IMG/VR virus record: IMGVR_UViG_3300025647_000271
Location: 1 to 24,054 of that record
Source: a virus
DNA: 24,054 nt
Strand: one strand, 5' to 3'
The notes under the pieces: generated by a model
The model's input: the letters and a program-made list of their open reading frames with translations, nothing else
Databases searched by the model: none
What the model was told of the DNA's origin: nothing
Program-made: the position numbers and the translations under genes
Shown: in pieces, positions 1 to 23,025 of the stretch
Numbering within the stretch: the stretch's first letter is position 1
How the letters are laid out: the number at the start of each line of letters is the position of its first letter

Positions 1-138
1 AGTGATAATTACCCAAATCATACAGTAAATGAATGGGCATTGTCCTTTTCAAATACTGCCGATATTATGTGCGAATCAAAAAATAAAAATCTTGCAACAA
101 CTGAACTTTATAATAAGTTTAAAGATCAGTTGATGTAA
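1..138 (+). CDS. 3' end of an unidentified gene (partial)
   Basis: An open frame enters from the left edge and ends at TAA 136-138, giving 45 C-terminal residues that finish KFKDQLM. The segment is polar (SDNYPNHTVNEWALSF near its start) with no motif I recognise. Codon use is AT-rich like the neighbouring genes and the strand is the same. A 72-bp gap with a late-promoter-like box separates it from the next gene. The function is unknown, and the start lies outside the window. Confidence 0.6.
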   Translation, partial: SDNYPNHTVNEWALSFSNTADIMCESKNKNLATTELYNKFKDQLM

Positions 139-148
139 CCAATTTTGC

Positions 149-155
149 ATAAATA
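149..155 (+). promoter_or_regulatory. ATAAATA late-promoter-like box
   Basis: ATAAATA sits in the 72-bp gap about 55 bp before the ParB-like gene at 211. T4-like phages start late transcription at TATAAATA-type -10 boxes read by gp55, and marine relatives use shorter [N]ATAAATA or CTAAATA forms. In AT-rich DNA the heptamer can occur by chance. Its intergenic position, repeated in front of other virion genes here, is the main support. Confidence 0.4.
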
Positions 156-210
156 TTTCTATCTACAATAAACGTGCAATACATTGTACTAAAAATATAG
201 GAAATATTTA

Positions 211-651
211 ATGCATTTGAGTGAAATTATACATGGAGTAGTGCAATCTTATATTGCAGAAAATAAGCAAAAAAAGCCAATATATGATTTTATCAATCCA
301 TTGCCAGTTGCAAAAGGTAAAATTGTTTCAGATACAATGGATATAATCGACGAAGTGTATGAATATATGTATCCTGACGTTCCATTTGTACAAAGGAATA
401 TGTTATATGGAACACGAATGGAAGTGCCAATTAAATCTATTAAGTGTATTGAAGAAAAACTAAGCTCCGAGCATATTAAAAATATCGTGAAAAATAAAGG
501 CGATTCTTTTGAACCGCCTTTGCTATATCTTGCTAATGAAATATACTATGCAGCTGATGGCAACCATAGAATTGTCGCTAGTTATCTTCAAGGAAAGAAA
601 ACAATATATTGCAATGTATTAAGTTTAGATTTTTTCAATACTGAGGACTAA
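211..651 (+). CDS. ParB/Srx-fold (DGNHR) protein with capsid-targeting-like leader
   Basis: 146 aa. The second half resembles the ParB N-terminal (ParB/Srx) fold: the segment PIKSIKC near residues 73-79, then a beta strand and the signature DGNHRIVAS around residues 115-123, which matches the DGxHR nucleotide-binding or nuclease box. No helix-turn-helix DNA-binding domain follows, so this is a stand-alone catalytic or binding domain rather than a partition ParB. The N-terminus MHLSEII is like those of the next genes and could be a capsid-targeting leader, with IAE|N near residue 17 as a possible gp21-type cut site. AGGAAA at 199-204 supports this start. It ends 1 bp before the next gene, so the two are probably cotranscribed. 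Its biochemical activity (CTPase, nuclease or other) cannot be told from sequence. Confidence 0.7.
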   Translation: MHLSEIIHGVVQSYIAENKQKKPIYDFINPLPVAKGKIVSDTMDIIDEVYEYMYPDVPFVQRNMLYGTRMEVPIKSIKCIEEKLSSEHIKNIVKNKGDSFEPPLLYLANEIYYAADGNHRIVASYLQGKKTIYCNVLSLDFFNTED

Positions 652-652
652 A

Positions 653-1693
653 ATGAAAATAAAAGATGTAATAATCGAAGCAGTAGATCATAGAGAGCTG
701 CAAGTTAAACTTAAAGCAGCAATTTTACAAGCAATGGACGATACGCTTCGAGCATTGGTTAATCGATTAGAGGAAGACGATCCTACTGACGAGTTATTAG
801 AACCCCCTATAAGCATGAGATCAGAACTTAACTTTAACGATCCAGACTCACTTTTTTCTACAATGTTAGATGCAATGTCTAATAGAATATATGAAAAAAC
901 ATTAGTTAGAGTTCGGTTTGATGCGTTAGGACCGTCAATTCAAGCAAAAGCTGTTGGAAATGAATATATAGTCGTTAATATTAGCTTAATAATGGATATG
1001 GTGTCTGTTGTGATAGACTCTATGCATATGATGTTAACAGATGTGTTAGAACTAGATAGTCTAGGGTTTAACTACGATGATGATGAAGAAGAAGAAGAAG
1101 ATGAAGATGCATACATTCCAACAGTAGGTGAAGCGATTTCGGTATTGAAAAAAATGTTTAATACTTGGAATTTTATGTTTAGAGAATATCGAGACGTGAC
1201 AATTCCTTTTGTAACAACTCTTATCCATGAAATTGGACATTTTATCCAAATTTCAAGACAACTGCATTATCAAAAAAACGTAGACGCACTTGAGTACAGA
1301 TCCTACTTAATGAAGGATAAGAAAAAGTTTGCGGAACTAATGAAAAACAAAGACACTGATTACAAATTTAAATTATATTATGCTAGTCCTCAAGAAATAG
1401 CTGCGTATGCACAAGAATCTGCTTATGGGATTATTTTAGAGATTTTAGGTACTGTATTAGATTCTTCACTTGAAAACAAAGATTCTGTACGTGATGTTTT
1501 ATTTAAGTTGGATCAAGCAATATTAGGCTTGTCAAATAATACAACAAGTTATCAGATTATTCAAACGTATCGAGATTTTTTCTATAAACCTGCAAATAAA
1601 AAAGAGTTTGCTATCTATAAACGATTCATTAAAATTGTATATCAACAATTAACACAATATAGAGCTAGTTTAATTGATCGTATATCGGAGTGA
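653..1693 (+). CDS. HExxH zinc metallopeptidase, paralog A
   Basis: 346 aa. Residues 192-196 are HEIGH, the zincin motif with two zinc-binding His and a catalytic Glu. About 50 residues later comes SPQEIAAYAQE (residues 245-255), a likely source of the third (Glu) zinc ligand, as in gluzincin-type proteases. An acidic run of Asp and Glu lies near residues 141-152, encoded by GAT/GAA repeats, and is probably a flexible loop. The leader MKIKDVIIEAV fits the T4 capsid-targeting pattern with a cut after IIE. It starts 1 bp after the previous stop with GAGGA at 643-647. The last 20 codons are duplicated at 2597-2659. A paralog with the same layout lies at 2669-3664. Its substrate is unknown: packaged protease, scaffold processing and host-targeting effector are all possible. 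Confidence 0.75.
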   Translation: MKIKDVIIEAVDHRELQVKLKAAILQAMDDTLRALVNRLEEDDPTDELLEPPISMRSELNFNDPDSLFSTMLDAMSNRIYEKTLVRVRFDALGPSIQAKAVGNEYIVVNISLIMDMVSVVIDSMHMMLTDVLELDSLGFNYDDDEEEEEDEDAYIPTVGEAISVLKKMFNTWNFMFREYRDVTIPFVTTLIHEIGHFIQISRQLHYQKNVDALEYRSYLMKDKKKFAELMKNKDTDYKFKLYYASPQEIAAYAQESAYGIILEILGTVLDSSLENKDSVRDVLFKLDQAILGLSNNTTSYQIIQTYRDFFYKPANKKEFAIYKRFIKIVYQQLTQYRASLIDRISE

Positions 1694-1707
1694 ATTATAT
1701 TATGAAA
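1630..1707 (+). repeat. 78-bp direct repeat, copy 1
   Basis: This stretch covers the last codons and stop of metallopeptidase A, the ribosome-binding site and the first codons (ATGAAA) of the next gene. It matches 2597-2674 at 77 of 78 positions. The single difference is A1693 versus C2660, which turns the TGA stop into TGC in copy 2. The offset is 967 bp. Confidence 0.95.
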
Positions 1708-2586
1708 GCAAGTGAATTTATACAGGAAGCAGGAAAAATATCTATCAAAAGTATTGCCCCACCGACTAATATCAGTTCAGAAGAAAAACAAAACGCATTT
1801 GCCAACCTCACTCAAACAGAAATAGATCAATTAGGTTCTCCTAAATATATTTCAAAAGAAATGTGGCCGCAATTTAGAAAATGGTTGGTACAACGTAGTC
1901 TAGCTAGTAATCCATTGCTTAATCCTGAGCTCACAGCATACACTCCTGGCGAAACACTTGCATTATTTAAGCATCCTGAGATTGCTAACTGGCATCGAGA
2001 AATTGTTAAGTATGAAGTTCCCTCTAAATATAAAATGGTAGCATTTGTACCTTGTGGTAAAACTAAACCATGGGCAAATGCTGCTCGTGGAATATACAAA
2101 AGCTATAACAGAATTATAAACGATAATAAATATCCGGTTTATTTTGTAACAGTGTCTGAACCATTAGGAATTGTTCCTAGTAGTTTATGGGGGGATTTCC
2201 CACAATATGATAATCCCGGATTATTCACAGATGACACACAACAGTCTGGCGGCTTATTCACAGCAGACTGGAAAAAATATTACGGTACTGGTAAACAAAA
2301 AATGCCATTTGACACTGCTGCATATTCGCAATGTATCAAAATTTTAGGCGATGTAATTAATAAGTTTATTGAAAATAACTCTCAGGTTAAGTACGTTAGT
2401 TTTGTTGAAGATAAAATATTTAAAGTAGGTGCTACTAAAGTTGGAACACATAGCGCAATGCTATCACATACTAGTAAAATAGACCCTGAGAACCGTTATT
2501 TAAAACGTGCAGCAGCTAGAGAAGAACCGTACAATTATATTGACCAATCATTAGCAACACATTTTAACAAAGAGAGGGATTTATGA
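1702..2586 (+). CDS. ArcS/DUF5591-like protein with capsid-targeting-like leader
   Basis: 294 aa from ATG 1702; a GTG at 1690 in frame would add four residues. I prefer 1702 because GGAG (1687-1690) is well spaced and it yields MKASEFIQEAG, close to T4 internal protein leaders with a cut after IQE. Residues 116-124 (VPCGKTKPW) and 152-173 (SEPLGIVP, then a WGDFPQYDNPG segment) resemble the archaeosine synthase core/DUF5591: PC-x3-KPY, SPLG(L/V)VP and YPxxYD. In ArcS that motif transfers lysine onto preQ0 in tRNA. Here Tyr is Trp and the later Ser and His of PCxxxKPYxxSxxH are Ala127 and Gly130, so chemistry may differ. DUF6884-like proteins are an alternative match. The gene is bracketed by a 78-bp direct repeat, as if inserted or duplicated between the two metallopeptidase paralogs. 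Confidence 0.6.
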   Translation: MKASEFIQEAGKISIKSIAPPTNISSEEKQNAFANLTQTEIDQLGSPKYISKEMWPQFRKWLVQRSLASNPLLNPELTAYTPGETLALFKHPEIANWHREIVKYEVPSKYKMVAFVPCGKTKPWANAARGIYKSYNRIINDNKYPVYFVTVSEPLGIVPSSLWGDFPQYDNPGLFTDDTQQSGGLFTADWKKYYGTGKQKMPFDTAAYSQCIKILGDVINKFIENNSQVKYVSFVEDKIFKVGATKVGTHSAMLSHTSKIDPENRYLKRAAAREEPYNYIDQSLATHFNKERDL

Positions 2587-2672
2587 ATCACAGCGATAAA
2601 ATTGTATATCAACAATTAACACAATATAGAGCTAGTTTAATTGATCGTATATCGGAGTGCATTATATTATGA
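2583..2672 (+). pseudogene. remnant of metallopeptidase A C-terminus
   Basis: A 29-codon frame starts at an ATG overlapping the previous stop (ATGA). It encodes MNHSD and then KIVYQQLTQYRASLIDRISE, identical to the last 20 residues of metallopeptidase A. It reads through the mutated stop (TGC) to a TGA at 2670-2672. It is best seen as the tail left by a duplication or recombination, not a functional gene, though a short peptide could be translated. It also supplies the ribosome-binding site (GGAG) for the gene at 2669. Confidence 0.7.
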
Positions 2673-2674
2673 AA
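2597..2674 (+). repeat. 78-bp direct repeat, copy 2
   Basis: Second copy of the 1630-1707 repeat, with one mismatch. It spans the remnant of the metallopeptidase A tail, the GGAG ribosome-binding site and the ATGAAA start of metallopeptidase B. The two copies therefore place the same translation-start module before the ArcS-like gene and before paralog B. Confidence 0.95.
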
Positions 2675-3664
2675 CTACATGAAGTAATTTCATATAGCAA
2701 TTATAGAGATGAATTGTTATCACTAGTTGACAATGCGTTGCATGATACTGTTGCTTCTATTGGTGAGATATTCTATCAACAATATAGTAATCAAAAATTA
2801 ATATCTTATGATGATTTTTATTTATTTTTAGATAAAACTTTACTACGGATTTTAAAAAATAATATTATAAAAAAGTTTAGATATTTTACAAAACATATAT
2901 TAAATATGGAATTAGCAGATACATTAGAGATTCAATTTTCAAAAAATTTAACAGTACCTGGCCAAGCGTCAAACACTGAAATTTTATTAAATATAGATTT
3001 ACTTGATGCTATTTTGGAAAATTTAAAAAATAGTATTACACAAGAATTATTTAATCAAAATGATTTTGATGAAACTAATACAATTCATAACATCCAACGT
3101 GCATACAAAACTATTAAATCTATTAAATTTAAAAGTCCTATTTACAAAATAAGTAATTCTGTTGCAAAACTAATTTATGTTTTTATACATGAATTAGTAC
3201 ATATGCAACAAGATTTAAAACAGAATAAACAATCAAAAGAATATCGATCATATTTAACTAATGATCAGCAAATCTTTAATAAAGCAATAGATTCAATTAT
3301 GTCTGGTAAAAGGGACAAAAATGATTTAAAATTATATTTGTCTAGTCCACAAGAAATATCAGCATATGCAAACGAAGCAGTATTATACATCTTACATGAA
3401 TTAATTGAAGATAATATTAATTATGCTAGTATTGAAGATATAAAATTTTACCTTAAACGGTTATCAATCTTTATTAAAAATGGCAACTTTATGAAAGAAG
3501 AATATTATAGTAGCATAATGGCAAACTATGCTTCTTATTTTGATAAGACTAATTATTCAGAATATAAAATATTTAAACGATTTTATAAGTTAGTCGGCAA
3601 GTTATTATTAAATTATCGAGATAATCTCAAACAACTTTTAGATAAAAAACAGGAATTACAATGA
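2669..3664 (+). CDS. HExxH zinc metallopeptidase, paralog B
   Basis: 331 aa from ATG 2669; the in-frame GTG at 2657 is less likely because GGAG at 2654-2657 then has no spacing. Residues 174-178 are HELVH, followed by SSPQEISAYANE at 225-236, the same zinc-site layout as paralog A. Further shared elements are a YRSYL segment after the HExxH helix and a C-terminal (F)KRF-K/Y helix. Overall identity looks modest, so this duplication is old, unlike the near-identical 78-bp repeat upstream. The leader MKLHEVIS resembles the cassette's other leaders but lacks an obvious [L/I]xE|A site within the first ten residues. The stop overlaps the next gene as ATGA. The acidic run of paralog A is absent. The substrate is unknown. 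Confidence 0.75.
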   Translation: MKLHEVISYSNYRDELLSLVDNALHDTVASIGEIFYQQYSNQKLISYDDFYLFLDKTLLRILKNNIIKKFRYFTKHILNMELADTLEIQFSKNLTVPGQASNTEILLNIDLLDAILENLKNSITQELFNQNDFDETNTIHNIQRAYKTIKSIKFKSPIYKISNSVAKLIYVFIHELVHMQQDLKQNKQSKEYRSYLTNDQQIFNKAIDSIMSGKRDKNDLKLYLSSPQEISAYANEAVLYILHELIEDNINYASIEDIKFYLKRLSIFIKNGNFMKEEYYSSIMANYASYFDKTNYSEYKIFKRFYKLVGKLLLNYRDNLKQLLDKKQELQ

Positions 3665-3909
3665 ATTATTTAAATACAATGTATGGAAAAAAACACCAGC
3701 AGTCTTCCACTGATACTAAAAATCCTAACAGAGTTGCAGGTGGGTTAAAAGGGCAAGGAGTAGACCATTTTGAGCTACTAGGAGAAAATGGAGTTATTCA
3801 AAAAATACCTACTCAACGATATGTTCAAGCACTTGAAGCACAATTACGAGTACAACGCGAAGCATTAAGTCGAATAGAGAAAAAAATGTATAGTATACGG
3901 CAAACATAA
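3661..3909 (+). CDS. 82-aa conserved hypothetical with C-terminal coiled coil
   Basis: 82 aa. The start overlaps the previous stop (ATGA), which suggests translational coupling. The first third is polar and glycine/serine rich. Residues 35-52 (VDHFELLGENGVIQKIPT) look like a small beta hairpin. The last 30 residues (YVQALEAQLRVQREALSRIE and onward) have heptad-like hydrophobic spacing and probably form an amphipathic helix or coiled coil. It lacks the MKxxE leader of its neighbours. I do not recognise a family. Given the setting, a small structural or adaptor protein is plausible but unproven. Confidence 0.75.
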   Translation: MNYLNTMYGKKHQQSSTDTKNPNRVAGGLKGQGVDHFELLGENGVIQKIPTQRYVQALEAQLRVQREALSRIEKKMYSIRQT

Positions 3910-3921
3910 CGGAATACCAAT

Positions 3922-4767
3922 ATGAAAATGATAGAAATAACTGACGACATGATTAACGAAGGTTGGAAGGATTTAGCAGCAAGTTTAGGGATTGGTGCAG
4001 CAGTTACTGCAGGAGCAGGTGCTGGGTTAATGAAAGTTAAAGACTATAATCATCCAGACTTTACTAAAGACCCTACTTATCAAACTTATTCGCAAGAAGA
4101 ATTGGATAAAATTAGAAATCCAACATCTCAAGAAAAATCTCCCAAGATAGACTCAGTGTCTAAAAGTACACCTAAATCAAATGCAGATCAGCCTAAAACA
4201 GTAAAGACTACTAAACAAGCAGCTACTGTTAAATTATTAACTAAGCAGCCCAGTGAAAAAACATTGTTAGATGCTGCGAAAAAAGCTGGAATCAAAGGAA
4301 CAGAATTAGCAGCATTTATGGCACAAGCAGCACACGAATGCCAAAATTTTACTAGAATGGTTGAAACTAATCCTAGGATTAAAAGTTATTTAAAAAATAA
4401 AAGTTTAGGTAATAAAAATTTAAATGATGCAAAACGATTTATCGGTAGAGGTTATTTTCAACTTACTGGTAGATGGAACTATAATTGGATGGGTAAATTG
4501 TTAGGTGACGATTTTACTAGTACTTGGACAAATGCAAATAAATTATCTGAACCTGAAACTGCTGCAAAAGTTGCTATAATGTATTGGAAAAAAAGAGTAA
4601 GACCACATGTAACTGATTTTACAGATATTAAACAAGTAACTAAACGTATTAACAGTAGCTTAAATGGGTTAGACGATCGAACTAATAAGTATAACAAATA
4701 TGTTTCCTCTATGAATACAACTGTTGCTAACAATACTTCTACTGCAACTGCAAAATCTGGATCATAA
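3922..4767 (+). CDS. GH19-type lysozyme/chitinase-fold peptidoglycan hydrolase
   Basis: 281 aa. The C-terminal domain (about residues 105-265) has GH19 landmarks. AQAAHECQNF carries the likely catalytic acid Glu139, followed by Glu at about 148. FIGRGYFQLTGRWNYNWMG (residues 173-191) matches the family's GRGxxQLTGRxNY substrate-groove motif. Phage GH19 enzymes cut the glycan backbone of peptidoglycan. The N-terminus MKMIEITDDMINEGWKDL is followed by an Ala/Gly-rich hydrophobic stretch (residues 20-37) and a low-complexity Lys/Ser/Pro/Thr linker (about 60-105). INE|G could be a gp21-type cut site; alternatively the hydrophobic stretch could be a membrane or signal-anchor segment. Its place beside leader-bearing genes, with no holin nearby, favours a virion-associated entry lysozyme over a plain endolysin, but this is inference. 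GGAA at 3911-3914 is the ribosome site. Confidence 0.85.
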   Translation: MKMIEITDDMINEGWKDLAASLGIGAAVTAGAGAGLMKVKDYNHPDFTKDPTYQTYSQEELDKIRNPTSQEKSPKIDSVSKSTPKSNADQPKTVKTTKQAATVKLLTKQPSEKTLLDAAKKAGIKGTELAAFMAQAAHECQNFTRMVETNPRIKSYLKNKSLGNKNLNDAKRFIGRGYFQLTGRWNYNWMGKLLGDDFTSTWTNANKLSEPETAAKVAIMYWKKRVRPHVTDFTDIKQVTKRINSSLNGLDDRTNKYNKYVSSMNTTVANNTSTATAKSGS

Positions 4768-5229
4768 ATGAAGATTGTAGAAATAACTAATCGAATCTAT
4801 ATTTCAGATCAGCAATGGAAAAAAGAGATTAAGAATAACGTCTATCCAGATGATCGATCTAGGGCTGCGGTTGCTGAAATATCTCCAGATGACTTTTTAT
4901 TTCTTGCAGACGATAGCAACGGACAAGCATCAGACCGTGCATTACAGTACGGGCAATTTGATAATGAAAAATTTACAAGCGATTGGTTACCTACTTTAGA
5001 TATAACTATAGATGGCAAAGTTTATGATCATGAAGGACGAGCAAGAGCTACTATGATTAAAAAATCAAATATATCTAAAATGCCAATAATACTACGTTTG
5101 CCAGCTAACAATAGAGTTAAGTCTAAAGACGAATTTCCAAACATAATAACACAGCAATCTGGATCAAAGGCAAAACGGATTAACATAAAAGAATTGCTTT
5201 CTTATAATTCGACAAATCCATTTAAATAA
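4768..5229 (+). CDS. ParB-fold-like (HEGRxRA) protein
   Basis: 153 aa, starting directly after the lysozyme stop (TAAATG), so cotranslation is likely. Residues 86-94 (YDHEGRARA) resemble the HEGRHRA box of ParB/Srx-fold domains, followed by a strand of the type MPIILRLP. Upstream, residues 38-50 (ISPDDFLFLADDS) and the W-LPTLDI region may form the first strands. The leader MKIVEITNRIY matches the cassette's N-terminal pattern without a clear [L/I]xE|A site. Together with the DGNHR protein at 211-651, the cassette holds two different ParB-fold proteins. The real activity is unknown. Late-promoter-like sequence follows its stop. Confidence 0.6.
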   Translation: MKIVEITNRIYISDQQWKKEIKNNVYPDDRSRAAVAEISPDDFLFLADDSNGQASDRALQYGQFDNEKFTSDWLPTLDITIDGKVYDHEGRARATMIKKSNISKMPIILRLPANNRVKSKDEFPNIITQQSGSKAKRINIKELLSYNSTNPFK

Positions 5230-5235
5230 TGAGAA

Positions 5236-5242
5236 CTAAATA
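5236..5242 (+). promoter_or_regulatory. CTAAATA late-promoter-like box
   Basis: CTAAATA lies in the 40-bp gap between the ParB-like gene and the membrane protein, 27 bp before its ATG. CTAAATA-type boxes are reported as late promoters in marine T4-like phages. AAGGAG (5259-5264) follows as a strong ribosome-binding site, so the arrangement looks like a compact promoter plus leader. Confidence 0.45.
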
Positions 5243-5269
5243 CGATTATAACATCAGCAAGGAGTAATA

Positions 5270-5602
5270 ATGAAACAAACATTAATTAATATGAAAAATT
5301 GGATTATTGAACGATCTAAAGAACGCACTACATTAGACGGATTAATATTATTGTCAGCATGTGTTGCATTTTTAATTGTTCAAGAGTTTACCCAGTATGT
5401 TGCATACTTTGGTATAGGTTATAGCTTATGGACTATGTGGAAAAAAGAAAAAATACAATTTATAGAAAAATTAGTCCCAAATATTGTAGAAAAACCTAAA
5501 CCCAAACCCAGAGCAAAATCTAAACCTAGAGCAACATCTAAGTCTAAAACAGCATCAAAGACTAAATCTGTATCTAAAACAGATACAGGTACTGCTGCAT
5601 AA
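5270..5602 (+). CDS. small membrane protein with Lys/Pro/Ser-rich tail
   Basis: 110 aa. Residues about 22-54 form a hydrophobic segment (from DGLILLSACVAFLIVQEF to YFGIGYSLWTMW), enough for one or two membrane spans, with flanking basic residues. From residue 73 the tail is a low-complexity basic repeat of KPKPRAKSK, TSKSK and TASKTK units, probably disordered and able to bind nucleic acid or acidic surfaces. A strong AAGGAG site sits 5 bp before the ATG. It is the last gene before a hairpin terminator. I do not recognise a named family. Similar single-span proteins with basic tails occur in marine T4-like genomes, but a holin or envelope role is only a guess. Confidence 0.75.
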   Translation: MKQTLINMKNWIIERSKERTTLDGLILLSACVAFLIVQEFTQYVAYFGIGYSLWTMWKKEKIQFIEKLVPNIVEKPKPKPRAKSKPRATSKSKTASKTKSVSKTDTGTAA

Positions 5603-5630
5603 AAAATAATTTTAAATACCTTTCTTTATT

Positions 5631-5662
5631 AAGAGATAGTGCAAGTACGCCTATCTCTTTTC
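5631..5662 (+). terminator. hairpin terminator after the membrane-protein gene
   Basis: AAGAGATAG (5631-5639) and CTATCTCTT (5651-5659) form a 9-bp stem around an 11-nt loop, followed by TT. The U-tract is short, so termination may be partial. The loop contains GCAAGTACGC, a decamer repeated at 5710-5719. Confidence 0.55.
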
Positions 5663-5719
5663 ATAATATAACTACTATACATTATTTTTGCTAGTATTTG
5701 CAGAATGCAGCAAGTACGC
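5641..5719 (+). repeat. decamer direct repeat in the control region
   Basis: GCAAGTACGC occurs at 5641-5650 (the terminator loop) and again at 5710-5719, just before the two ATAAATA boxes. In a GC-poor gap of 179 bp an exact 10-mer with six G/C bases twice is notable. It could be a protein or RNA binding site, or a duplication remnant. Confidence 0.5.
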
Positions 5720-5726
5720 ATCCCAG

Positions 5727-5757
5727 ATAAATATATTAAACATATTTCTAATAAATA
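5727..5757 (+). promoter_or_regulatory. tandem ATAAATA late-promoter-like boxes
   Basis: ATAAATA occurs at 5727-5733 and 5751-5757, 24 bp apart, upstream of the 2619-aa fibre gene. The rest of the 179-bp gap holds the terminator and the repeated decamer. GGAG at 5771-5774 is the ribosome site for ATG 5782. Two boxes in the longest gap of the window make a late promoter for the fibre block likely. Confidence 0.55.
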
Positions 5758-5781
5758 TACAGATTTTAATGGAGCAAAATA

Positions 5782-8700
5782 ATGGCAAAACAAGAAATTG
5801 ATATCGGTGTTGAAGGTAATGACGGTACCGGAGATAGTATACGAGAATCATTTAGAAAAGTAAATGAAAATTTTAACGAATTGTATGCTGTTTTTGGTAT
5901 AGGAGGCCAGATATCATTTACTGATTTAGGCGATGTTCCTGATGCATATAATAATAATGAAAATAAAGCAGTTATTGTAAAATCAGACGGGTCAGGATTA
6001 ACTTTCTTAGAACTAGCAAGTAACAGCGCATTAGATAATACAGCCGATACTATTGGTTTTGATTTTACAGTTGATGGAAAATTAATAGTACGTCAACTTT
6101 CATCAAAATTAAGTAACGACCCGAAAGCAGAATTATCAAGCCCACTTAATGCAAATTCGTATGCTATTGCAAATGTAGAAGTATCATCTGATGCTATTGA
6201 CTTGTTTAACAATGTTCATAATACTGATTTCACGTTAGATGCATTAGTTATTAACAAAGGGTATGCAGATCAAACATATCAAAAAAAACAAATTTCAGGA
6301 AGTGGAATTAGGATAGGTGATGAACCTCAAGATACTAGTAATTATATTTTAACTACATCTACAATTTCATCTGGATATTTATACATTCAAGATCATGGAT
6401 TAACTTCTGAATATACCGGCGGAGCTTACATTTTTAACTCATCAGGTTCAGATCCTGCAGGTGTAGTTTCAGGTGAAATATATTATATACGTATACAAGA
6501 TGAAAACAATATTGGATTATATTCTTCTGCAGAAGATGCTATTAATAATGTTAATAGAATATTATTAACTGGCGGAACTGGAGAATTTACGTTAACAGAC
6601 TTGTACTACGATCCGTCGCTATTAGGAAACTGGTTATCTAATTCTGTACTTCCAAGATATGCAGTTGTACGGCGCCAAGGAGATACAATGGAAGGACCAT
6701 TGTACTTATCAGATCATCCTGGCGATTTGTCCGGCACAGGAACTCCTAACGATGCTACTGATTTGCAAGCAGCTACTAAATTATATGTTGACAATGCTGC
6801 AGTAACTAGCAATGTTAATCTATTTGTAAACACATCCGGAGACGATCGTCAACTGTCAACTCCTATAGGTAGAGAAGGAAGATCACCCGGCTATGCATAT
6901 CGAACAATAAACGCTGCTGCTAGAAAAGCAGAAGAACTTATACTAGCAACTCCATACGAGCCCGGCCCTTATATACAAACAATTACATATGGTAATAATA
7001 GCAATAATTCGACTATTATTACATCAGGAATGAGCTCCCCAATTTCCGGTCGTAATAATTCTAGAACACTTATTTTAAAAAATAAAGTGTTTATTGTGAA
7101 TGAAGTTATTGGATTTATAAAATCTACTTATCCAAGTTTTTCTGACAATTACGATATTGAGCTATGTCAGAGAGATATAGAATTAATTTTAGAAAGTGTA
7201 TCATTAGACTCGTTATCTGGAAACAATGCTAATTACTTATCTCGATGGGCTGGCATTCGATACTACTCAAATATTAGTTCTAGGAATGCAATTAGTAGAC
7301 AAAAAGTACAAACTGTTGCTAGTATTGAATTTGTAAGAGATTTAGTAGTAGACTATATTTTAACAAATACTGCGGTAGATACTATGTATCAAACAAAGTA
7401 TACACAGTATATAAATGAAACTGTAGTACCTGACTTACAAGCAGCATCTGTAATAGAAGCGAAATTTAACGTAGTATTAACTGTAATCGAATCTGGAGTA
7501 TTAGGAGCGCCTGGTGTTATTGACGGTGGAACTACATATAAAATTAATTTATCCAATGGCAATAATGGTCATGTTGACCAAGCAGATCCAATTAATACAG
7601 ACATTATACCTGGGAAAATAGTTAGAGGAAAACTTTCAGGAGCTGTTGGCAGAATCATCGACTATAAGTACGAAGCAGGGCCTAGAGCAGTTAGTTTACT
7701 TGAAACAGATGAGATAGATGTTCAGCTATTAGAACCAATTGAGTTTGAAAATGGCGAAGAACTGGAATATGGTAATATTGTAAGAAATAATCATATTGCT
7801 ATATTTGTTGAATCTGGCGTATATGAAGAAGATTTCCCTATACGATTACCTCCGAATGTATCAATCTGCGGGGACGAATTACGTAGATGTGTTATTAAAC
7901 CTAAAAATAGAATATCTCAATCTATTTGGGCTGATATGTATTTTTATCGTGATGCAGAATTTGACGGTATGGTATTAGGTAAAAGTAATATAGAAACTAT
8001 TACATACGATGCTCAAACTGATGTATATCGCATACCCGGTACATATACTGTAAGTTCTTACATTTCAGAGTTTTTTGGAAAAGATGCAGTATTTAGAATA
8101 ACAGTAGGAAGCGGAGGTGAGATTTCAAATGTAGAAATATTAGAGTTTGGAACATCATTTCAAAAAGATGAAAGAATATTTATAAAAGATGCACAATTAG
8201 GTAACAACGGTGCTGCAGATATTGTGTTAACTGTTACTAAAGTTCCAAATGGTGTTGAATATATAAATCCGTTAACTCAACGAGTTGACGGATACTTTGG
8301 CAGACATTATCTCACTGATCCAGCATTGACTAAAAATGTTGGCAGTGTCTATGAGAATGTTGGAAGATGGGTAGCTGCTACTGAAATTATTCGTGTTAAC
8401 AAACTTTTTTTACAGGAACAAGCTACAAATTATGTAGAATATTTTTTCCCTGCATATGTACTATCTGGAGATTATTCAAGATCGATCTTTTTCAAAAATA
8501 TAGGTCTTATTATTGATGGATTAATTAATGATTTAAATAACGGTGGCAATGAATATGCTTTAGAACTTCAAGGAAAATTCTACGATATTGCGAATCGTTA
8601 TAATGCAACTTCTGAAATTAATAATTCAATTCGTTTTATAAACACGCTATTAACACAATTGTACAACGCAGAAGAACCGGTATTAACATATGGAACTGAA

Positions 8701-11700
8701 TCAACTAAAACATACGATCACGATATTTCATTAGGAATTGCTGATCCGTTTGAATGGGCTCCAAGTACGCTTTATAAAGAAAAAGAAGTTGTTAAAGTTT
8801 TAGCATCGGGTGTATATTACTATTATGTTGCAACAAAAACACATACGTCATCATTAGAATTTGATTATTTAGAAAGTATTAATTATTGGAGAGAAATTGA
8901 CGGTGTTTATGCTGCAACTGAAAATTTAATAGATACTATTGTTTATTGGTTTGATGGTGAATATAATCCTCCACTAAACAATAAAGACTTAGATGTATTT
9001 TTATTAAATGATGCAACTATGATTAGGAACATATCAGTTCACGGTCATGGAGGATTTATGGGAGTACTTGATCCTGAAGGCCAAGTATTAACAAAATCAC
9101 CATATATTCAAGGATCTTCGTCGTTTTCAAAATCATCAAACAAACAATCATTCAGTGGTGGTATCTTTGTAGATGCATTTGTGGGAAATACTGCTGTTCA
9201 AGTATATGAAAAAATAGATGGAGATCCATTTAGAATTATGGTTCAGAGTTATGGATCTCAAGCAGAACCACAAGGATTATTCGTCCGTAGACCTGAAACA
9301 CCTAGCGTGTTTTATATAGATGGAAAACGATTTCAAGTTAATGCAATTGCACAATATGATCCAGATTTAGGTATAGCAGAATTAAAATTAGATTATAGTT
9401 CAAATAACAATCTTGGTTTTTCTGGAGTAACTAGTAGTTTATCTACAGGTGTTAACTTAAATGATTTATCTAGTCCAATTCCTATTACATTGCAAACTGC
9501 AGGTAATAGATCAATATTAGGTAATGACTTTACTAATATTAACGATTTAGGTTATGGATTAGTAGTTGCTAATGGGGCATTGTCAGAACTAGTATCAATG
9601 TTTACATATTATTGCTGGGCATCATACTATTCAAAAAATGGATCACAAATTAGGTCTTTGTCTAGTTCAAGTTGTTACGGTGAATATGGATTAGTAGCAG
9701 ATGGGTTTGACCCAAATGAAATTCCAGATGATATTTTTCTAGCTCAAGATATGGTTCAATCAGCTAGAACTTTTAATGCTAATGTTATTTTAACATTATC
9801 TGGGGGTGTAGTAGTTGAACAAGGGCAAGTATTAACGCAAGTGAGTAGCGGTGCTTTCGGCACAGTTGTAGTTGATTCAAGCGATACTTCAGGGTCAACT
9901 GTAATTTATCTTATCAATGTTCAAGGAGCATTTGATTTAACTAATGAATTGGAAATTACTGAAACAGCACTTGGAGCTCCTACTTCTGTAGCATTAGGTG
10001 CAAACAGTGTGCCAGTTTCAATTGATCCAGATGGGTACACAAACCAATTGGAAAAATTGTTCTTGTATGCATTCGATTTTAAAGATGTTCCATCATCAAG
10101 ATCTGAATTTGACATATATCATGAAACTAAACAAATCTTTGCTAGATACGAAGTAGCAAACGTAGAAAAAACTAATGCGTGTGTAGGAAGATACGAAAAT
10201 GTAGGAACATCGATTCCAGTTACTAAAGATGTAACTAATCCTCTTGCTAACAATGCAGTATTTACAATTTATAAAACTATTCACAATGGGTATTCTGCAG
10301 ATATAATTTCAAACGGTACAAACTTTACAGTAGGAGATACTATTACAGTTGACGGTAACTTATTAGGAGGTACTAGTGTAGAACATGATGCTATTATTAC
10401 AGTAACTGAAATTGATAATGGTGATCCTGTAGCATTAACTGGAATTATTACAGCATTTTCAATTGCAGGTACTATTAAAGTTGAAGCGTCGACTCCGATG
10501 TTTGACGGTCGTGTATATAAATTGAATTTTTCTACTAGCGAAACTCAATTTAGTCGTAACGGTTTATTAGAAAATGTTCCATATGGTAAAATAATAAATT
10601 ATAGAAGAAATCAAACACATATAATTTCAGATATTAAATCACAAGAATTAATAGCAATTAGACCGTCAACTGCTATAGTCTTTGATGAAAATACTGATAC
10701 TGTATATCGTTCGATATCATTTTTAACTAGCGATAGTATAGGCAATGAATTGCCAGATGGAACTGCACAAGTTAGTTTTGATGAAGGTTACGACTATATT
10801 CGATTAATCATTGACAGTGCAAGAGCTCAAACTAGTGAATTAGCCGGCTCAGGTACAACTAAAGGTGCAACAATAGGAGATGTGCGGTTAGCACTGCAAC
10901 CAGTTTCTGACACTAATGAAATATATCGATTAAACAATAATAGCAAGACACCTGAAGGATTTAGGCCATTAGGGTGGAGACCAGAAACATTAGTAGAAGC
11001 ACCTATTATATCATGGGGTGGAAAAACACATTATGTGTTTAATTATCGAGGTGTTGATTCAGAAGGAAACGAAGTCCCTGTTTCAGAAAATATAGCGTAT
11101 GCACTTGTTGATCTAGAAGATATTGAAACTATTAACCAAACAGACTCTACAGGTATAGCACTTCCAGTTATCTACGGATCAGAAAATATTACTATTAGAG
11201 CAGGGTTGAAAGCAAATCAAACTGGAAACATTACTGTAGGTATTTCAACATGTCGAGTAACTGGGCATGATTTCTTAGACATAGGTACAGGTAGTTATAA
11301 CAATACTAATTTCCCAAATGTAATTTTCGGAAGCCCAAGTGAAAAAGACAGCTCTAAAGAAGTTACAGAAATTAATAAAGGCCGTGTATTTTATACATCA
11401 ACAGATCAGGATGGTGTTTTTAGAGCTGGAAGATTCTTTAGTGTAGACCAAGGTACAGGCACAGTTTCGTTTGCTGCTAACATTGCACTTTCCGATGTTG
11501 ATGGATTAGGATTCAAGCGTGGAGTTGTTATTACTGAATTTTCCACAGACACTGCAATGGCTGACAATGCATCTGATACAGTACCTACTGAAAGTGCCGT
11601 TCGAGGATACATTAATCGAAGACTAGGATTTGATACAAATGGAAATGTTATAGTTAATAAAATCGGCCCAGGTGCAATTGCAGCAGATGGCTCAACTATT

Positions 11701-13641
11701 TTAACTGGAGATTTAAATGCTGGTAGTAACACTATTACTAATTTAAAAGCTCCTACTAACGATTCAGATGTTGCTACTAAAATTTACGTTGACGACTTGA
11801 TATTAGCTAACAGTAGTAGTGAATTGTTAGCAGATATGAACGACGTTGATATTACAAATATATCAAATGGTCAGCTATTAATTAGTACAGGTTACAAAAA
11901 AATATTTGTAATTTCAGGTTCGATTGTAAACGGTCCGTTTGAAGTTAATGATCAGATGGTAGGATCAGTTACTGGAGCAGTTGGTACTATTTTAGGAACT
12001 AGAGATTTTCAAAGTTTAGGAACAAACTTAACTGAGATAATTTATACTCCAGTATCTGGAGTATTTAGTGATGGTAAACCTGAAGGAGATTCTCCTGCGG
12101 TGGATACTGTTCAAGTCGTCGGAGGAGCAGAAGCTGTAATATTATCAGGACCAGTTGATGAATGGGCGAATGCTGTACATGATAATTTAAGTGATATATC
12201 ATTTACAAATATTAATACATTAACTGTAGTTAATAACGAAGTTACTGAAAAATATTCGACAATTAATTTCCAAATTAAACCAAATACTATTGTTAATAGC
12301 GATGTTTCTGCAACAGCAGGGATTGTACAAAGTAAATTATTACTTAATGCAGCAACTACACGAAGTAATGCAACCGGACTCACGCAATCAGAATTAGGAG
12401 TTGCATCGTTTAACAGCACGGTATTTACTGCATCAAATGGATGGATTTCTCTTGCTGACAATGGAATTGATTTTAATAAAATTGCCAGAATTGAAAATAA
12501 TAAAGTATTAGGAAATTGGGCAAACGATACTGGGTCTGCACATATAGAGCAAATATCTTTTTCTACAGTAGTTACAGAAGGAGGCGCACTGCTCCCAAGT
12601 AACTTTACAACAGAAATACCAGCAGCACAAGATCCAGGCTCTGCATTAGTTAAATTGTCAACTGGTACTTTTGGAATAAGTAATATATCAATTACCGGCG
12701 AAGCTAACAGTTTAGTAAAAACAAATACAAACGGTAGTGTTCATGCTCGATCCTTAATAATAGGTAACGACTCTAGCTACGAAGTAATGTCGCTAACAGG
12801 TACTATGTTAAATTTAAAAACTCCTTCTCAAGGTTTAATTTTAACTGCTGTCGGCGGGTCTGGAGGAACATCACCTACATATCCTGATGTAACTTTTTAT
12901 GGAAATTTGTCAATAGGCGACGATGCTGGATCACAGAGTGTATTGCAAAGCTTGTCAACTTACAATAACCAGAGTTTCTTATCAACTAATTGGATTTACA
13001 GCAGTTTTATTGAAGCACAAGAAGAAAAAACAGCAGCATCTACAGGAATTGCATTAGGAGCTGGAACAGGTAAAACAACTGCAGGACAAGTTGCAATTGT
13101 AACAGCAAATACTGGATCAAACTCTAGTGTTACACCGTTTATTTTTGACCGTACAGGTGTAAAACCAGACACTACAAATGTATATAACATTGGAGCATCA
13201 AATTTAGTATACAACACTGTATACGCAACATTGTTTAACGGGACTGCAACTACTGCTAGGTATGCTGACTTAGCTGAAAATTATTTAGCAGATAACTATT
13301 ATACATTTGGCACTGTTTTAATCTTTGGTGGAGAATATGAATTAACTACTACAAATATTAAATCTGATACACGAGTTGCAGGTATTGTATCTGAAAATCC
13401 TGCACACTTAATGAACTCGTCGTTAGATGGAAATTTTGTTATTCCATTAGCATTACAAGGTCGAGTAATGTGTAAAGTAGTAGGAAAAGTTAAAAAAGGA
13501 GATCTATTAGTATCAAGCTCTATATCTGAGTATGCGTGTGCTATAGATTCTGCAATTCCAGGTACAATAATAGGAAAAGCACTAACAAATAAGTTCGATA
13601 CCGAACGTGGAATGATCGAAGTAGTTGTTGGTAAACACTAA
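5782..13641 (+). CDS. 2619-aa modular tail-fibre/baseplate-associated virion protein
   Basis: The N-terminus carries the fibre motif NDGTGDSIRESFRKVNENF (residues about 13-32) and then a DLGDVPDAY motif. Two fibre spacers of the form GDxxxG...ATKxYVD lie near residues 299-337 and 1976-2010. A pectin-lyase-like region starts near 345 (FVNTSGDDR) and includes GVYEEDFPIRLPPNVSICGD near 679. A highly recognisable block HGHGGFMGVLDPEGQ begins near 1086. Three copies of a small SGAxG...F..GE beta module occur near 610-665, 1345-1394 and 2053-2100. The C-terminal 125 residues (from ARYADLAENY near 2492 to IEVVVGKH) form a distinct globular tip domain. It is probably a trimeric adhesin or fibre; host-glycan depolymerase activity is possible but no catalytic triad is evident. 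A T4 gene number cannot be assigned safely. Confidence 0.9.
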   Translation: MAKQEIDIGVEGNDGTGDSIRESFRKVNENFNELYAVFGIGGQISFTDLGDVPDAYNNNENKAVIVKSDGSGLTFLELASNSALDNTADTIGFDFTVDGKLIVRQLSSKLSNDPKAELSSPLNANSYAIANVEVSSDAIDLFNNVHNTDFTLDALVINKGYADQTYQKKQISGSGIRIGDEPQDTSNYILTTSTISSGYLYIQDHGLTSEYTGGAYIFNSSGSDPAGVVSGEIYYIRIQDENNIGLYSSAEDAINNVNRILLTGGTGEFTLTDLYYDPSLLGNWLSNSVLPRYAVVRRQGDTMEGPLYLSDHPGDLSGTGTPNDATDLQAATKLYVDNAAVTSNVNLFVNTSGDDRQLSTPIGREGRSPGYAYRTINAAARKAEELILATPYEPGPYIQTITYGNNSNNSTIITSGMSSPISGRNNSRTLILKNKVFIVNEVIGFIKSTYPSFSDNYDIELCQRDIELILESVSLDSLSGNNANYLSRWAGIRYYSNISSRNAISRQKVQTVASIEFVRDLVVDYILTNTAVDTMYQTKYTQYINETVVPDLQAASVIEAKFNVVLTVIESGVLGAPGVIDGGTTYKINLSNGNNGHVDQADPINTDIIPGKIVRGKLSGAVGRIIDYKYEAGPRAVSLLETDEIDVQLLEPIEFENGEELEYGNIVRNNHIAIFVESGVYEEDFPIRLPPNVSICGDELRRCVIKPKNRISQSIWADMYFYRDAEFDGMVLGKSNIETITYDAQTDVYRIPGTYTVSSYISEFFGKDAVFRITVGSGGEISNVEILEFGTSFQKDERIFIKDAQLGNNGAADIVLTVTKVPNGVEYINPLTQRVDGYFGRHYLTDPALTKNVGSVYENVGRWVAATEIIRVNKLFLQEQATNYVEYFFPAYVLSGDYSRSIFFKNIGLIIDGLINDLNNGGNEYALELQGKFYDIANRYNATSEINNSIRFINTLLTQLYNAEEPVLTYGTESTKTYDHDISLGIADPFEWAPSTLYKEKEVVKVLASGVYYYYVATKTHTSSLEFDYLESINYWREIDGVYAATENLIDTIVYWFDGEYNPPLNNKDLDVFLLNDATMIRNISVHGHGGFMGVLDPEGQVLTKSPYIQGSSSFSKSSNKQSFSGGIFVDAFVGNTAVQVYEKIDGDPFRIMVQSYGSQAEPQGLFVRRPETPSVFYIDGKRFQVNAIAQYDPDLGIAELKLDYSSNNNLGFSGVTSSLSTGVNLNDLSSPIPITLQTAGNRSILGNDFTNINDLGYGLVVANGALSELVSMFTYYCWASYYSKNGSQIRSLSSSSCYGEYGLVADGFDPNEIPDDIFLAQDMVQSARTFNANVILTLSGGVVVEQGQVLTQVSSGAFGTVVVDSSDTSGSTVIYLINVQGAFDLTNELEITETALGAPTSVALGANSVPVSIDPDGYTNQLEKLFLYAFDFKDVPSSRSEFDIYHETKQIFARYEVANVEKTNACVGRYENVGTSIPVTKDVTNPLANNAVFTIYKTIHNGYSADIISNGTNFTVGDTITVDGNLLGGTSVEHDAIITVTEIDNGDPVALTGIITAFSIAGTIKVEASTPMFDGRVYKLNFSTSETQFSRNGLLENVPYGKIINYRRNQTHIISDIKSQELIAIRPSTAIVFDENTDTVYRSISFLTSDSIGNELPDGTAQVSFDEGYDYIRLIIDSARAQTSELAGSGTTKGATIGDVRLALQPVSDTNEIYRLNNNSKTPEGFRPLGWRPETLVEAPIISWGGKTHYVFNYRGVDSEGNEVPVSENIAYALVDLEDIETINQTDSTGIALPVIYGSENITIRAGLKANQTGNITVGISTCRVTGHDFLDIGTGSYNNTNFPNVIFGSPSEKDSSKEVTEINKGRVFYTSTDQDGVFRAGRFFSVDQGTGTVSFAANIALSDVDGLGFKRGVVITEFSTDTAMADNASDTVPTESAVRGYINRRLGFDTNGNVIVNKIGPGAIAADGSTILTGDLNAGSNTITNLKAPTNDSDVATKIYVDDLILANSSSELLADMNDVDITNISNGQLLISTGYKKIFVISGSIVNGPFEVNDQMVGSVTGAVGTILGTRDFQSLGTNLTEIIYTPVSGVFSDGKPEGDSPAVDTVQVVGGAEAVILSGPVDEWANAVHDNLSDISFTNINTLTVVNNEVTEKYSTINFQIKPNTIVNSDVSATAGIVQSKLLLNAATTRSNATGLTQSELGVASFNSTVFTASNGWISLADNGIDFNKIARIENNKVLGNWANDTGSAHIEQISFSTVVTEGGALLPSNFTTEIPAAQDPGSALVKLSTGTFGISNISITGEANSLVKTNTNGSVHARSLIIGNDSSYEVMSLTGTMLNLKTPSQGLILTAVGGSGGTSPTYPDVTFYGNLSIGDDAGSQSVLQSLSTYNNQSFLSTNWIYSSFIEAQEEKTAASTGIALGAGTGKTTAGQVAIVTANTGSNSSVTPFIFDRTGVKPDTTNVYNIGASNLVYNTVYATLFNGTATTARYADLAENYLADNYYTFGTVLIFGGEYELTTTNIKSDTRVAGIVSENPAHLMNSSLDGNFVIPLALQGRVMCKVVGKVKKGDLLVSSSISEYACAIDSAIPGTIIGKALTNKFDTERGMIEVVVGKH

Positions 13642-13670
13642 GATTAGTTGCTAACAATAAGGAATAAAAT

Positions 13671-14180
13671 ATGACTATACAATTAATAAATTTAGGGACT
13701 AGTCCCAATAGAGGTGATGGAGACCCATTAAGAATTGCATTTGATAAAATCAATGATAATTTTACAGAGTTGTACGAAACTACAGCTCTTACTAGTGAAA
13801 CAGCACAGCAGTCTCTTTCCGATATAATAACTAATGGAGTTCAAGAAAACATAACAGTGTCTTATAACGAAACTGATAATGTTATAGAGTTTTCTGTGCC
13901 AAATACATTAAGCTCTTATATTAACGATACTGAATTTTTAGCTAATAATTCGTCCGATGATATTGTGTTTAATTCAAATCTAACAGTATTAGGTAATATA
14001 ATAGTAGCAGGAGATTTAGTAATACAATTTAGTGTACCTGTTACTAGTAAAGGTCAAGTATTAGATACACAAGGAGCAATATCAGTAGACTCTACATACA
14101 TATATTATTGTGTAGAAACATACACAACAGGAGAAGCTGATATATGGAAACGGATTGCCTGGTCAACTGATACTTGGTGA
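13671..14180 (+). CDS. small fibre-family virion protein (GDGDPLR motif)
   Basis: 169 aa. The N-terminus NRGDGDPLRIAFDKINDNF (residues about 13-31) is the same docking-like motif as in the 2619-aa fibre and the 231-aa protein. The middle is beta-rich. The C-terminus YIYYCVETYTTGEADIWKRI is a motif I know as a terminal strand-rich cap in marine phage fibre and baseplate proteins. AAGGAA before the ATG is the ribosome site. Its short length and two recognisable ends suggest a minimal fibre or connector. It is followed by a 38-bp gap with an ATAAATA box. Confidence 0.8.
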   Translation: MTIQLINLGTSPNRGDGDPLRIAFDKINDNFTELYETTALTSETAQQSLSDIITNGVQENITVSYNETDNVIEFSVPNTLSSYINDTEFLANNSSDDIVFNSNLTVLGNIIVAGDLVIQFSVPVTSKGQVLDTQGAISVDSTYIYYCVETYTTGEADIWKRIAWSTDTW

Positions 14181-14191
14181 TAAGGTGTGCG

Positions 14192-14198
14192 ATAAATA
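14192..14198 (+). promoter_or_regulatory. ATAAATA late-promoter-like box
   Basis: ATAAATA lies in the 38-bp gap, 20 bp before ATG 14219. This spacing leaves just enough room for a short leader and the AGGA at 14208-14211. It is one of the gaps in the virion block that carries such a box. Confidence 0.45.
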
Positions 14199-14218
14199 TA
14201 TAAAAATAGGATACATAC

Positions 14219-21599: not shown

Positions 21600-22118
21600 A
21601 TGTTAGTTAAAGATAAGTATGGTTTATTAAGAGCATCTGATAAAGATATTGTAGATATCTTATATTCAAATGATGCTAGTAAACTTTTTAATGTATTGTG
21701 TGAACCATCTGAAGATGTTGAGAAATTTAATGAAATACAATTTAATAAAGATTTACCAGGTTTAAAATTGTATATGTCATTAGACATTGATGTACTAATG
21801 TTTGATGAAATTTTACAAACAGAATGGCTTATGCCTACTAAATATAAAGAGTTTGATGTTTATGATTATTTGTTAAATAAATGTCAAAGTCAACAAGAAG
21901 TTGACCGATTGAATGAAGAATTTGAAGTATACATTAACCTTAATTTTTTAAATGTTCTTAAATATGTAAAATTTTTAGTTGACTTAATGAGAGAACATAA
22001 TATATTATGGGGCGTAGGTAGAGGTAGTAGTGTTAGTTCATTTGTATTATATTTACTTGAACTACACAAAATTAATCCAATCAAATATGAATTAGATTGG
22101 CGAGAGTTTTTAAGATAA
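21600..22118 (+). CDS. mini-protein resembling the DNA polymerase III alpha (DnaE) palm entry
   Basis: 172 aa. Residues 119-172 contain LKYVKFLVDLMREHN, then WGVGRGSSVSSFVLYLLEL (137-155), then INPIKYELDWREFLR. This aligns with the DnaE/PolC segment (V)GPGRGSGAGSLVAYxLxIT-DPLxxxLLFERFLN. In DnaE the catalytic aspartates (PDFDxDF) come about ten residues after FERFLN. Here the ORF stops at REFLR, so it cannot polymerise. The first 118 residues may match the preceding PHP-to-palm linker only weakly. T4-like phages use a B-family gp43 polymerase, so a C-family fragment is unexpected. No strong Shine-Dalgarno is seen. Two explanations are a conserved nucleotide- or DNA-binding accessory protein, or a residue of gene capture. 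The homology call itself rests on one motif region. Confidence 0.6.
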   Translation: MLVKDKYGLLRASDKDIVDILYSNDASKLFNVLCEPSEDVEKFNEIQFNKDLPGLKLYMSLDIDVLMFDEILQTEWLMPTKYKEFDVYDYLLNKCQSQQEVDRLNEEFEVYINLNFLNVLKYVKFLVDLMREHNILWGVGRGSSVSSFVLYLLELHKINPIKYELDWREFLR

Positions 22119-22956: not shown

Positions 22957-22988
22957 ATTGTTATAGGTAGATGTCTACCTATAACAAT
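22957..22988 (+). terminator. perfect 15-bp inverted repeat after the co-chaperonin gene
   Basis: ATTGTTATAGGTAGA (22957-22971) is the exact reverse complement of 22974-22988, with two bases (TG) between. The stem starts on the base after the stop codon. There is no following U-tract, so it may act as a weak or bidirectional terminator, an mRNA 3' stabiliser or processing hairpin, or a palindromic operator. The hairpin itself is certain; its role is not. Confidence 0.6.
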
Positions 22989-23025
22989 AGTATAATTTAA
23001 CATAAACAATAACAACAAATTAAAT

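Follow-up and report, generated by a model that had tools for sequence, protein, structure and literature searches.

A T4-type leader, probably for capsid targeting, on a cassette of enzyme-like genes in an uncultured T4-like phage

The window analysed is the whole stretch of 24,054 bases of IMG/VR virus record IMGVR_UViG_3300025647_000271. It carries at 211-5229 a cassette of seven consecutive genes, six of which encode proteins starting with the same type of short N-terminal leader, M[KRH]xx[ED][IVFLM][IVFLMT]. The exception is gene 5 (3661-3909), for which a similar start, judged by eye, is found at 137789 of the related phage G004. A preliminary description of this DNA had assigned the leader to six genes, and all six are found where it placed them (Table 1). 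The list of open reading frames (ORFs) gave upstream GTG starts for gene 3 (1690) and gene 4 (2657); the ATG starts (1702 and 2669, respectively) have GGAG about 11 bases before them and yield the leaders. A putative cut site, [IL]xE, is found at plausible places within the first 17 residues in genes 1, 2, 3 and 6. The sites IIE/A, IQE/A and INE/G (genes 2, 3 and 6), already proposed in the preliminary description, are confirmed, and IAE17/N of gene 1 is added.

Table 1. Features of the cassette and proteins that imitate the capsid arm. A slash marks the putative cut. aa, amino acids.
Feature	Record	Coordinates	Strand	Description
T4-late-promoter-like octamer CATAAATA	window	148..155	+	63 bases upstream of gene 1
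Gene 1	window	211..651	+	146 aa; start MHLSEIIHGV; weak ParB-like similarity
Gene 1 leader MHLSEIIHGVVQSYIAE/N	window	211..261	+	possible cut after residue 17 (IAE17/N)
Gene 2	window	653..1693	+	346 aa; start MKIKDVIIEAV; HExxH metallopeptidase-like; HEIGH at residue 192
Gene 2 leader MKIKDVIIE/A	window	653..679	+	site IIE9/A
Repeat copy 1	window	1630..1707	+	end of gene 2, ribosome-binding site, ATGAAA of gene 3 leader
Gene 3	window	1702..2586	+	294 aa; start MKASEFIQEAG; DUF5591 (PF17884)
Gene 3 leader MKASEFIQE/A	window	1702..1728	+	site IQE9/A
Repeat copy 2	window	2597..2674	+	ribosome-binding site, ATGAAA of gene 4 leader
Gene 4	window	2669..3664	+	331 aa; start MKLHEVISYS; second HExxH metallopeptidase-like; HELVH at residue 174
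Gene 4 leader MKLHEVIS	window	2669..2692	+	without cut site near its end
Gene 5	window	3661..3909	+	82 aa; without leader
Gene 6	window	3922..4767	+	281 aa; start MKMIEITDDMINEGW; GH19-type murein hydrolase; hydrophobic stretch after leader (by eye)
Gene 6 leader MKMIEITDDMINE/G	window	3922..3960	+	site INE13/G
Gene 7	window	4768..5229	+	153 aa; start MKIVEITNRI; no family match in profile searches
Gene 7 leader MKIVEITN	window	4768..4791	+	without cut site near its end
T4 gene 61.1	NC_000866	18966-19130		capsid-arm mimic; leader present
G003 protein	G003 (in L217)	28711-28884		capsid-arm mimic; leader present
S-CREM2 gp160	S-CREM2	128342-129235		capsid-arm mimic; in the virion list of PMC10665884; outside the leader rule
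Melnitz protein	Melnitz	22687-23205		weaker capsid-arm mimic; outside the leader rule

The window sits within the 90,274-base viral contig IMGVR_UViG_3300007538_000022 (identity 99.95%). The leader motif is found at the start of 11 of the 125 ORFs of this parent contig, the expectation obtained by shuffling the first 20 residues being 0.27; a comparison of this kind with random expectation had been proposed in the preliminary description. Given 11 among 127, six in seven consecutive genes have a permutation p of 7e-5. The other leader ORFs of the contig are found at 13583-15043 (three ORFs, among them g018, which has the cut site only), 49630, 64637 and 88258; a few further ORFs fit a loose rule only. 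Eleven positions distinguish the window from the parent contig. Two lie within the first 23.9 kb: position 219 is the third base of leader codon 3 in gene 1, and position 2660 falls in copy 2 of the 78-bp repeat, upstream of the gene 4 start.

The names proposed earlier for the bodies behind the leaders hold to different degrees. GH19 is well supported for gene 6 (PHROG 181 endolysin, 1.7e-29; PF00182, 2.3e-5, just under the cut-off). DUF5591 in gene 3 is just over the cut-off (PF17884, 3.8e-6, 27.2 bits for a cut-off of 26); we take this domain to be linked to archaeosine synthase. The metallopeptidase profile of gene 2 is weak (DUF3920, 8.1e-4, under the cut-off), the HExxH motif being present. 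Gene 1 matches PHROG 17560, of unknown function (1.2e-5), and only weakly the ParB-like PHROG 33277 (0.048). Motifs of ParB-like appearance were also noted by eye: ADGNHR in gene 1 (211-651) and DHEGRARA in gene 7 (4768-5229). The preliminary description held all bodies to be unrelated. This fails for genes 2 and 4, which are paralogs (29% identity over the alignment, common HExxH, E value 3.7e-15); a third metallopeptidase-like paralog, with HELTH and the start MLSLKQLLIEK, is found at contig position 55729. Elsewhere the claim stands: when leader ORFs are picked by a looser rule, one body pair of 136 is related in this phage and 0/66, 0/66, 0/153 and 0/120 in four others. No match to cultured phages was found by tblastn for genes 2 and 3 (E<=0.01) or for the g118 and g018 proteins (E<=0.001). 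Structure predictions were not used: the mean predicted local distance difference test score is 42 for the metallopeptidase (three paralogs) and 52.7 for the DUF5591 protein, for which a PDB fold search gave no match at E<=0.001.

Gene 3 is flanked by the two copies of a 78-bp direct repeat (98.7% identical), which resembles a scar left when a cassette was acquired by recombination at a translation start. Among the viral contigs scanned with 42 bases of this repeat, only this phage matched, and none showed the locus lacking gene 3. The octamer CATAAATA upstream of gene 1 is one that we liken to the T4 late promoter motif TATAAATA; with both strands counted, the 90-kb contig has 19 copies of [TC]ATAAATA, which makes the octamer suggestive only.

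The leader recurs on many unlike bodies in related uncultured T4-like phages. Two viral-contig scans gave 159 related loci (the best 80 of 123 and the best 80 of 196 matches), including four from this phage's own contigs; for the counts, L001-L011 are omitted and ORFs are dereplicated on their first 60 residues only. The motif starts 77 of 1864 distinct ORFs (nine of the 77 are this phage's own), for a shuffled mean of 3.7, and its rate is 4.1% at ORF starts vs 0.2% at internal Met; as many loci are near relatives, these counts are inflated and not independent. [IL]xE with E at residues 7-12 is found in 27.5% of the 345 ORFs starting with MK or MR vs 7.5% of the 1519 others, and has no excess at 15-20 (6.1% vs 8.6%). 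Five of ten leader-bearing proteins scanned against Pfam exceed the cut-off of a family; two of these are cytidylyltransferase-like, two are NT5C-like and one matches DUF6267. Of the 11 G009 ORFs between 9950 and 19424, nine fit one of two leader patterns.

The same body is found behind different leaders. L287 and L288 carry the gene 3 body at 82% identity behind the starts MRAREFIVE/A and MRAKEFIVE/A; a more distant copy in G021 (IMGVR_UViG_3300030202_003733; L289/L290) has 50% identity over residues 33-291 and the start MKLLFENWRSFINE/D, a leader found on eight further ORFs of G021. One body with leaders that differ by lineage is what a lineage-specific address tag predicts. In G021, nine ORFs, one of them NT5C-like by its DMDGVL motif only, have in common a 14-residue leader, MK[LN][LI]xEx[WF]xx[FY][IL]xE. 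This pattern, defined after the first eight ORFs were known, is found 0 times on shuffling and in none of 16 other genome sets. Among 18 leader ORFs picked in G021 by the looser rule, none of the 153 body pairs shows a relationship at E<=1e-3. Since the codons of the shared leader residues vary and the bodies are unrelated, the peptide is what is kept. G021 is the clearest example of a putative leader dialect proper to one lineage.

The T4-order head module is seen in relatives only, no head gene having been found on the two contig fragments of this phage. Twenty large related records, which include these two contigs, were searched: an S77 (gp21-type) prohead protease is found in nine and gp23 in the same nine. 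S77 is present in three of the five records with gene 2 or gene 3 relatives (five of nine relatives' loci covered). Four head modules show the T4 gene order of portal, acidic core protein, gp21, gp22 and gp23, interspersed with small ORFs. Profiles identify gp21 and gp23; the other three are named by position. Sites of the leader type are found in these head proteins: YL[ASM]E ending at residue 41 of the major capsid protein and LFE/N at residues 9-10 of gp22 in all four modules, and LxE at 6-8 of gp21.

In the cultured T4-like cyanophage S-CREM2, 52 virion proteins have been found by mass spectrometry (PMC10665884). The leader rule, M[KR] with [ILVMF]xE and E at 7-13, was fixed before comparison with this proteome. 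It is matched by six of 28 non-structural virion proteins, 0/24 structural ones and 3/167 undetected coding sequences (annotated starts), an enrichment with p=3.3e-4 for the non-structural and p=0.0065 for all 52 virion proteins. The preliminary description raised the possibility that the leader is equally common in non-virion genes; in S-CREM2 it is not. An earlier count with our own gene starts for undetected ORFs gave 6/52 vs 2/170; the annotated starts, giving 6/52 vs 3/167, are used. A T4-type regular expression gives 5/52 vs 0/167 (p=6.5e-4); having been written after the list was known, it is not relied on, and the looser predefined rule is preferred. Four of the six have a clear leader: SAM hydrolase, APH-like kinase, cytidylyltransferase and gp13. 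Two further proteins narrowly miss the rule, gp136 with MQTFSMFFSE and the Cas9-like nuclease with FASFMAEA at residues 19-26. The leader could instead target another phage compartment (tail, baseplate, membrane or replication compartment). Tail genes adjoin the cassette, which also encodes a murein hydrolase, but no structural virion protein of S-CREM2, tail proteins included, carries the leader, which resembles the tags of T4 internal proteins and has [IL]xE as in gp23, gp22 and gp21 of relatives; this reading is very improbable.

All four cytidylyltransferase/NMNAT proteins reported from virions start with the leader: MKNFSSFLTE/A in S-CREM2 (PMC10665884), MRFRQFIIE/A in S-SZBM1 (PMC9146016), MKKFSAFLNE/A in S-SM1 (PMC3037559) and MKSFLQFLKE/A in S-SCSM1 (PMC9602691). 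They are homologous and so not independent. As a background rate, 29 of the 2111 ORFs of the S77 group start with M[KR] and have [IL]xE at 9-10; this group comprises 11 genome sets, among them part of G022 as well as G001, where no S77 gene was found. Other virion-reported proteins of S-SZBM1, S-SM1 and S-SCSM1 are covered in part only; proteins 136 and 139 of S-SZBM1 are without leader.

A loose version of the cut-leader motif is found in 93 of the 2111 ORFs of the S77 group vs one of 378 in six non-S77 phages (T7, HTVC010P, lambda, N4, HTVC019P and P2; p=2.5e-6). The leader might be an ordinary amphipathic N-terminal helix, or reflect an ATGAAA preference in translation initiation, arisen many times and without targeting role: AT-rich phage genes often begin with MK, short motifs can reappear by chance, and the loose motif is just 1.7-fold over its control window. 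The site is, however, position-specific even among MK/MR starts, one 14-residue leader with varied codons is shared by the nine G021 ORFs and absent from the 16 other sets, and the leader is enriched in virion proteins. Such an origin is scarcely credible. The loose motif is a weak classifier alone and is evidence only in combination.

The reading preferred here, with a probability of about 0.8, is that the leader acts as a capsid-targeting propeptide of the T4 type and that the proteins bearing it form a set of effectors that are packaged and probably injected. Several results weigh against it. In the motif counts, the same-sized control window 27-33 gives 55/2111 in the S77 group and itself differs slightly from the non-S77 phages (4/378, p=0.04); in single phages the loose motif and the control window give 13 vs 15 (T4), 4 vs 6 (G010) and 5 vs 4 (HTVC008M). 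The strict motif, tried as a cross-phage classifier, is marginal (37/2111 vs 2/378, p=0.05) and was set aside. In S-CREM2, two of the six leader matches (MKQIIIHERG and MKKLISELKL) look accidental, and 22 of the 28 non-structural virion proteins have no leader, which is thus not needed for presence in the virion; gp13 and gp17 were each detected by a single peptide, and three unique peptides support the cytidylyltransferase (PMC10665884), and the authors of the S-CREM2 and S-SCSM1 studies warn of carry-over after purification (PMC10665884, PMC9602691). Some island homologs are without leader: the Syn1 cytidylyltransferase and the DUF6267 proteins of Syn1 and S-SZBM1. S77 and gp23 profile searches are negative in the two contigs of this phage, which are fragments, and in two other large relatives (164 and 135 kb). 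In the window, genes 4 and 7 have [IL]xE only at residue 5, probably too early; as targeting without processing is reported in T4, the missing sites weaken cutting more than packaging.

These two leaders without a cut site near their end, of the six in the window, also favour a rival in which the leader docks proteins, uncut, to the prohead core or an assembly intermediate, the cargo being structural or assembly-related and not injected. Several leader proteins of relatives, such as the g018 family, have no assigned role and would fit it too. Across relatives, however, [IL]xE is concentrated at the leader end, and the leader is found on enzyme-like proteins (cytidylyltransferase, NT5C) and on the virion-reported SAM hydrolase and kinase. 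Docking alone is improbable, though less so than the two other alternatives. The capsid-targeting proposal of the preliminary description is partly supported: relatives favour it (gp21 and gp23 homologs, leader exchange, virion enzymes), and it is weakened by the two paralogous bodies, the two leaders without plausible cut site and the poor performance of the loose motif as a classifier. By analogy, we infer that this phage has the same machinery and that its proteins are packaged, cut and injected, with the roles outlined below.

Under the capsid-targeting reading, the first 8-20 residues would draw the tagged protein late in infection into the prohead core (scaffold gp22 and its partners), and a gp21-type prohead protease would cut the tag after [IL]xE in most tagged proteins. 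Once freed, the proteins would remain inside the DNA-filled head until the next infection, when they would exit along with the genome. As predicted from its bodies, the cargo comprises a GH19 murein hydrolase (gene 6), two metallopeptidases (genes 2 and 4), a DUF5591 protein (gene 3), a ParB-like protein (gene 1) and an unassigned protein (gene 7), and may act at entry or in early takeover.

The closest known system is that of the T4 internal proteins IPI, IPII and IPIII, which carry a capsid targeting sequence (CTS). Their propeptides have 10-19 residues; head incorporation of IPIII needs the first ten residues only; residues 4 and 7 weigh most in targeting, 8 and 10 in processing; and targeting without processing is possible (PMC9026906). 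According to the same review, the CTS may be a route by which T4-like phages incorporate various proteins, and CTS-like sequences are said to be present on further proteins of other T-even phages (PMC9026906). Ip1-3, which are injected and inhibit type IV restriction enzymes, have the leader alone in common (PMC12373910). The cassette is similar in its short N-terminal leader on bodies that are unrelated except for genes 2 and 4, with [IL]xE at plausible places in four of the six leader genes and S77 in relatives. It differs in several respects: T4 internal proteins are restriction-enzyme inhibitors where studied, whereas several cassette bodies are enzyme-like; most of the cassette bodies exceed them in size, and some are acidic; and the sequence of the leader is specific to the lineage. 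The six leader proteins (146-346 aa) have isoelectric points of 5.4, 4.8, 9.1, 8.3, 9.8 and 8.8, those of genes 1 and 2 being acidic, vs 9.6, 9.7 and 7.9 computed alongside for the T4 internal proteins. The small basic body usual for the latter is thus not a feature of the six, so that functional likeness is claimed, not membership: the cassette proteins would work like T4 internal proteins and are not claimed as homologous members. A small basic body is not required for the T4 leader to work.

The virion NMNAT/cytidylyltransferase, SAM hydrolase and kinase of T4-like cyanophages have the same kind of leader on non-structural enzymes; their detections are reported, in the accessible parts of the reports, without description of a leader, and the cargo families of the window differ. 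The giant phages SPN3US and phiKZ are also reported to package many head proteins, some of them cut by a prohead protease, and to eject them. These phages belong to another group and are likened by description, not by sequence. Literature on CTS in cyanophages and marine phages was searched, most subscription journals being outside the search: the titles listed included reviews and work on T4, P1 and giant phages, and none of them described the leader in marine or uncultured phages. The propeptides of SPN3US and phiKZ are longer. The type of tag has its precedent in the T4 internal proteins; its use on arsenals of enzymes, in a form specific to each lineage, would be new.

In four proteins of four phages (Table 1), the N-terminal part imitates the mature N-terminal arm of the phage's own major capsid protein. 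Each is the best match to that capsid protein among the ORFs called in its record; scores with the own capsid protein are 77 (T4), 95 (S-CREM2), 41 (Melnitz) and 60 (G003), and at most 31 with the other three. Of the eight genome sets scanned, G004, G009, G010 and HTVC008M gave no such mimic. A general mimicry of the capsid arm by leader proteins was considered and dropped: mimics are found in four of the eight sets, and two of the four mimics are outside the leader rule. Among the papers listed in literature searches, none dealt with capsid-arm mimics.

Elsewhere in the window, PHROG matches include baseplate wedge, exonuclease and co-chaperonin, and blastn of window positions 200-8000 against a cultured phage collection found no relative. 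A 172-aa protein (window 21600-22118) matches over its length the 171-aa family PHROG 11127, annotated as DNA polymerase (6.1e-38), and larger DNA polymerase families over a short part only. In the G001 contig, intein-like fragments, recognised from sequence only, lie beside genes resembling those of DNA polymerase and ribonucleotide reductase (9740-10726 and 81116-82850).

A wider proposal, tentative and given slightly less than an even chance, is that uncultured lineages of the T4 superfamily may each use their own leader dialect, read by their own scaffold and protease, and swap enzyme bodies behind it. The injected proteome would then be readable from gene starts, and a companion family (T4 gp61.1, S-CREM2 gp160 and others) would mimic the mature N-terminal arm of the own major capsid protein. 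It usually takes proteomics to learn which phage proteins enter the cell with the DNA; should the leader prove a reliable packaging tag, the injected enzymes of uncultured T4-like phages would be predictable from sequence. The leader would also offer a reason, left open by cyanophage proteomics, for the recurrence of NMNAT-like enzymes, SAM hydrolase and kinases in purified virions.

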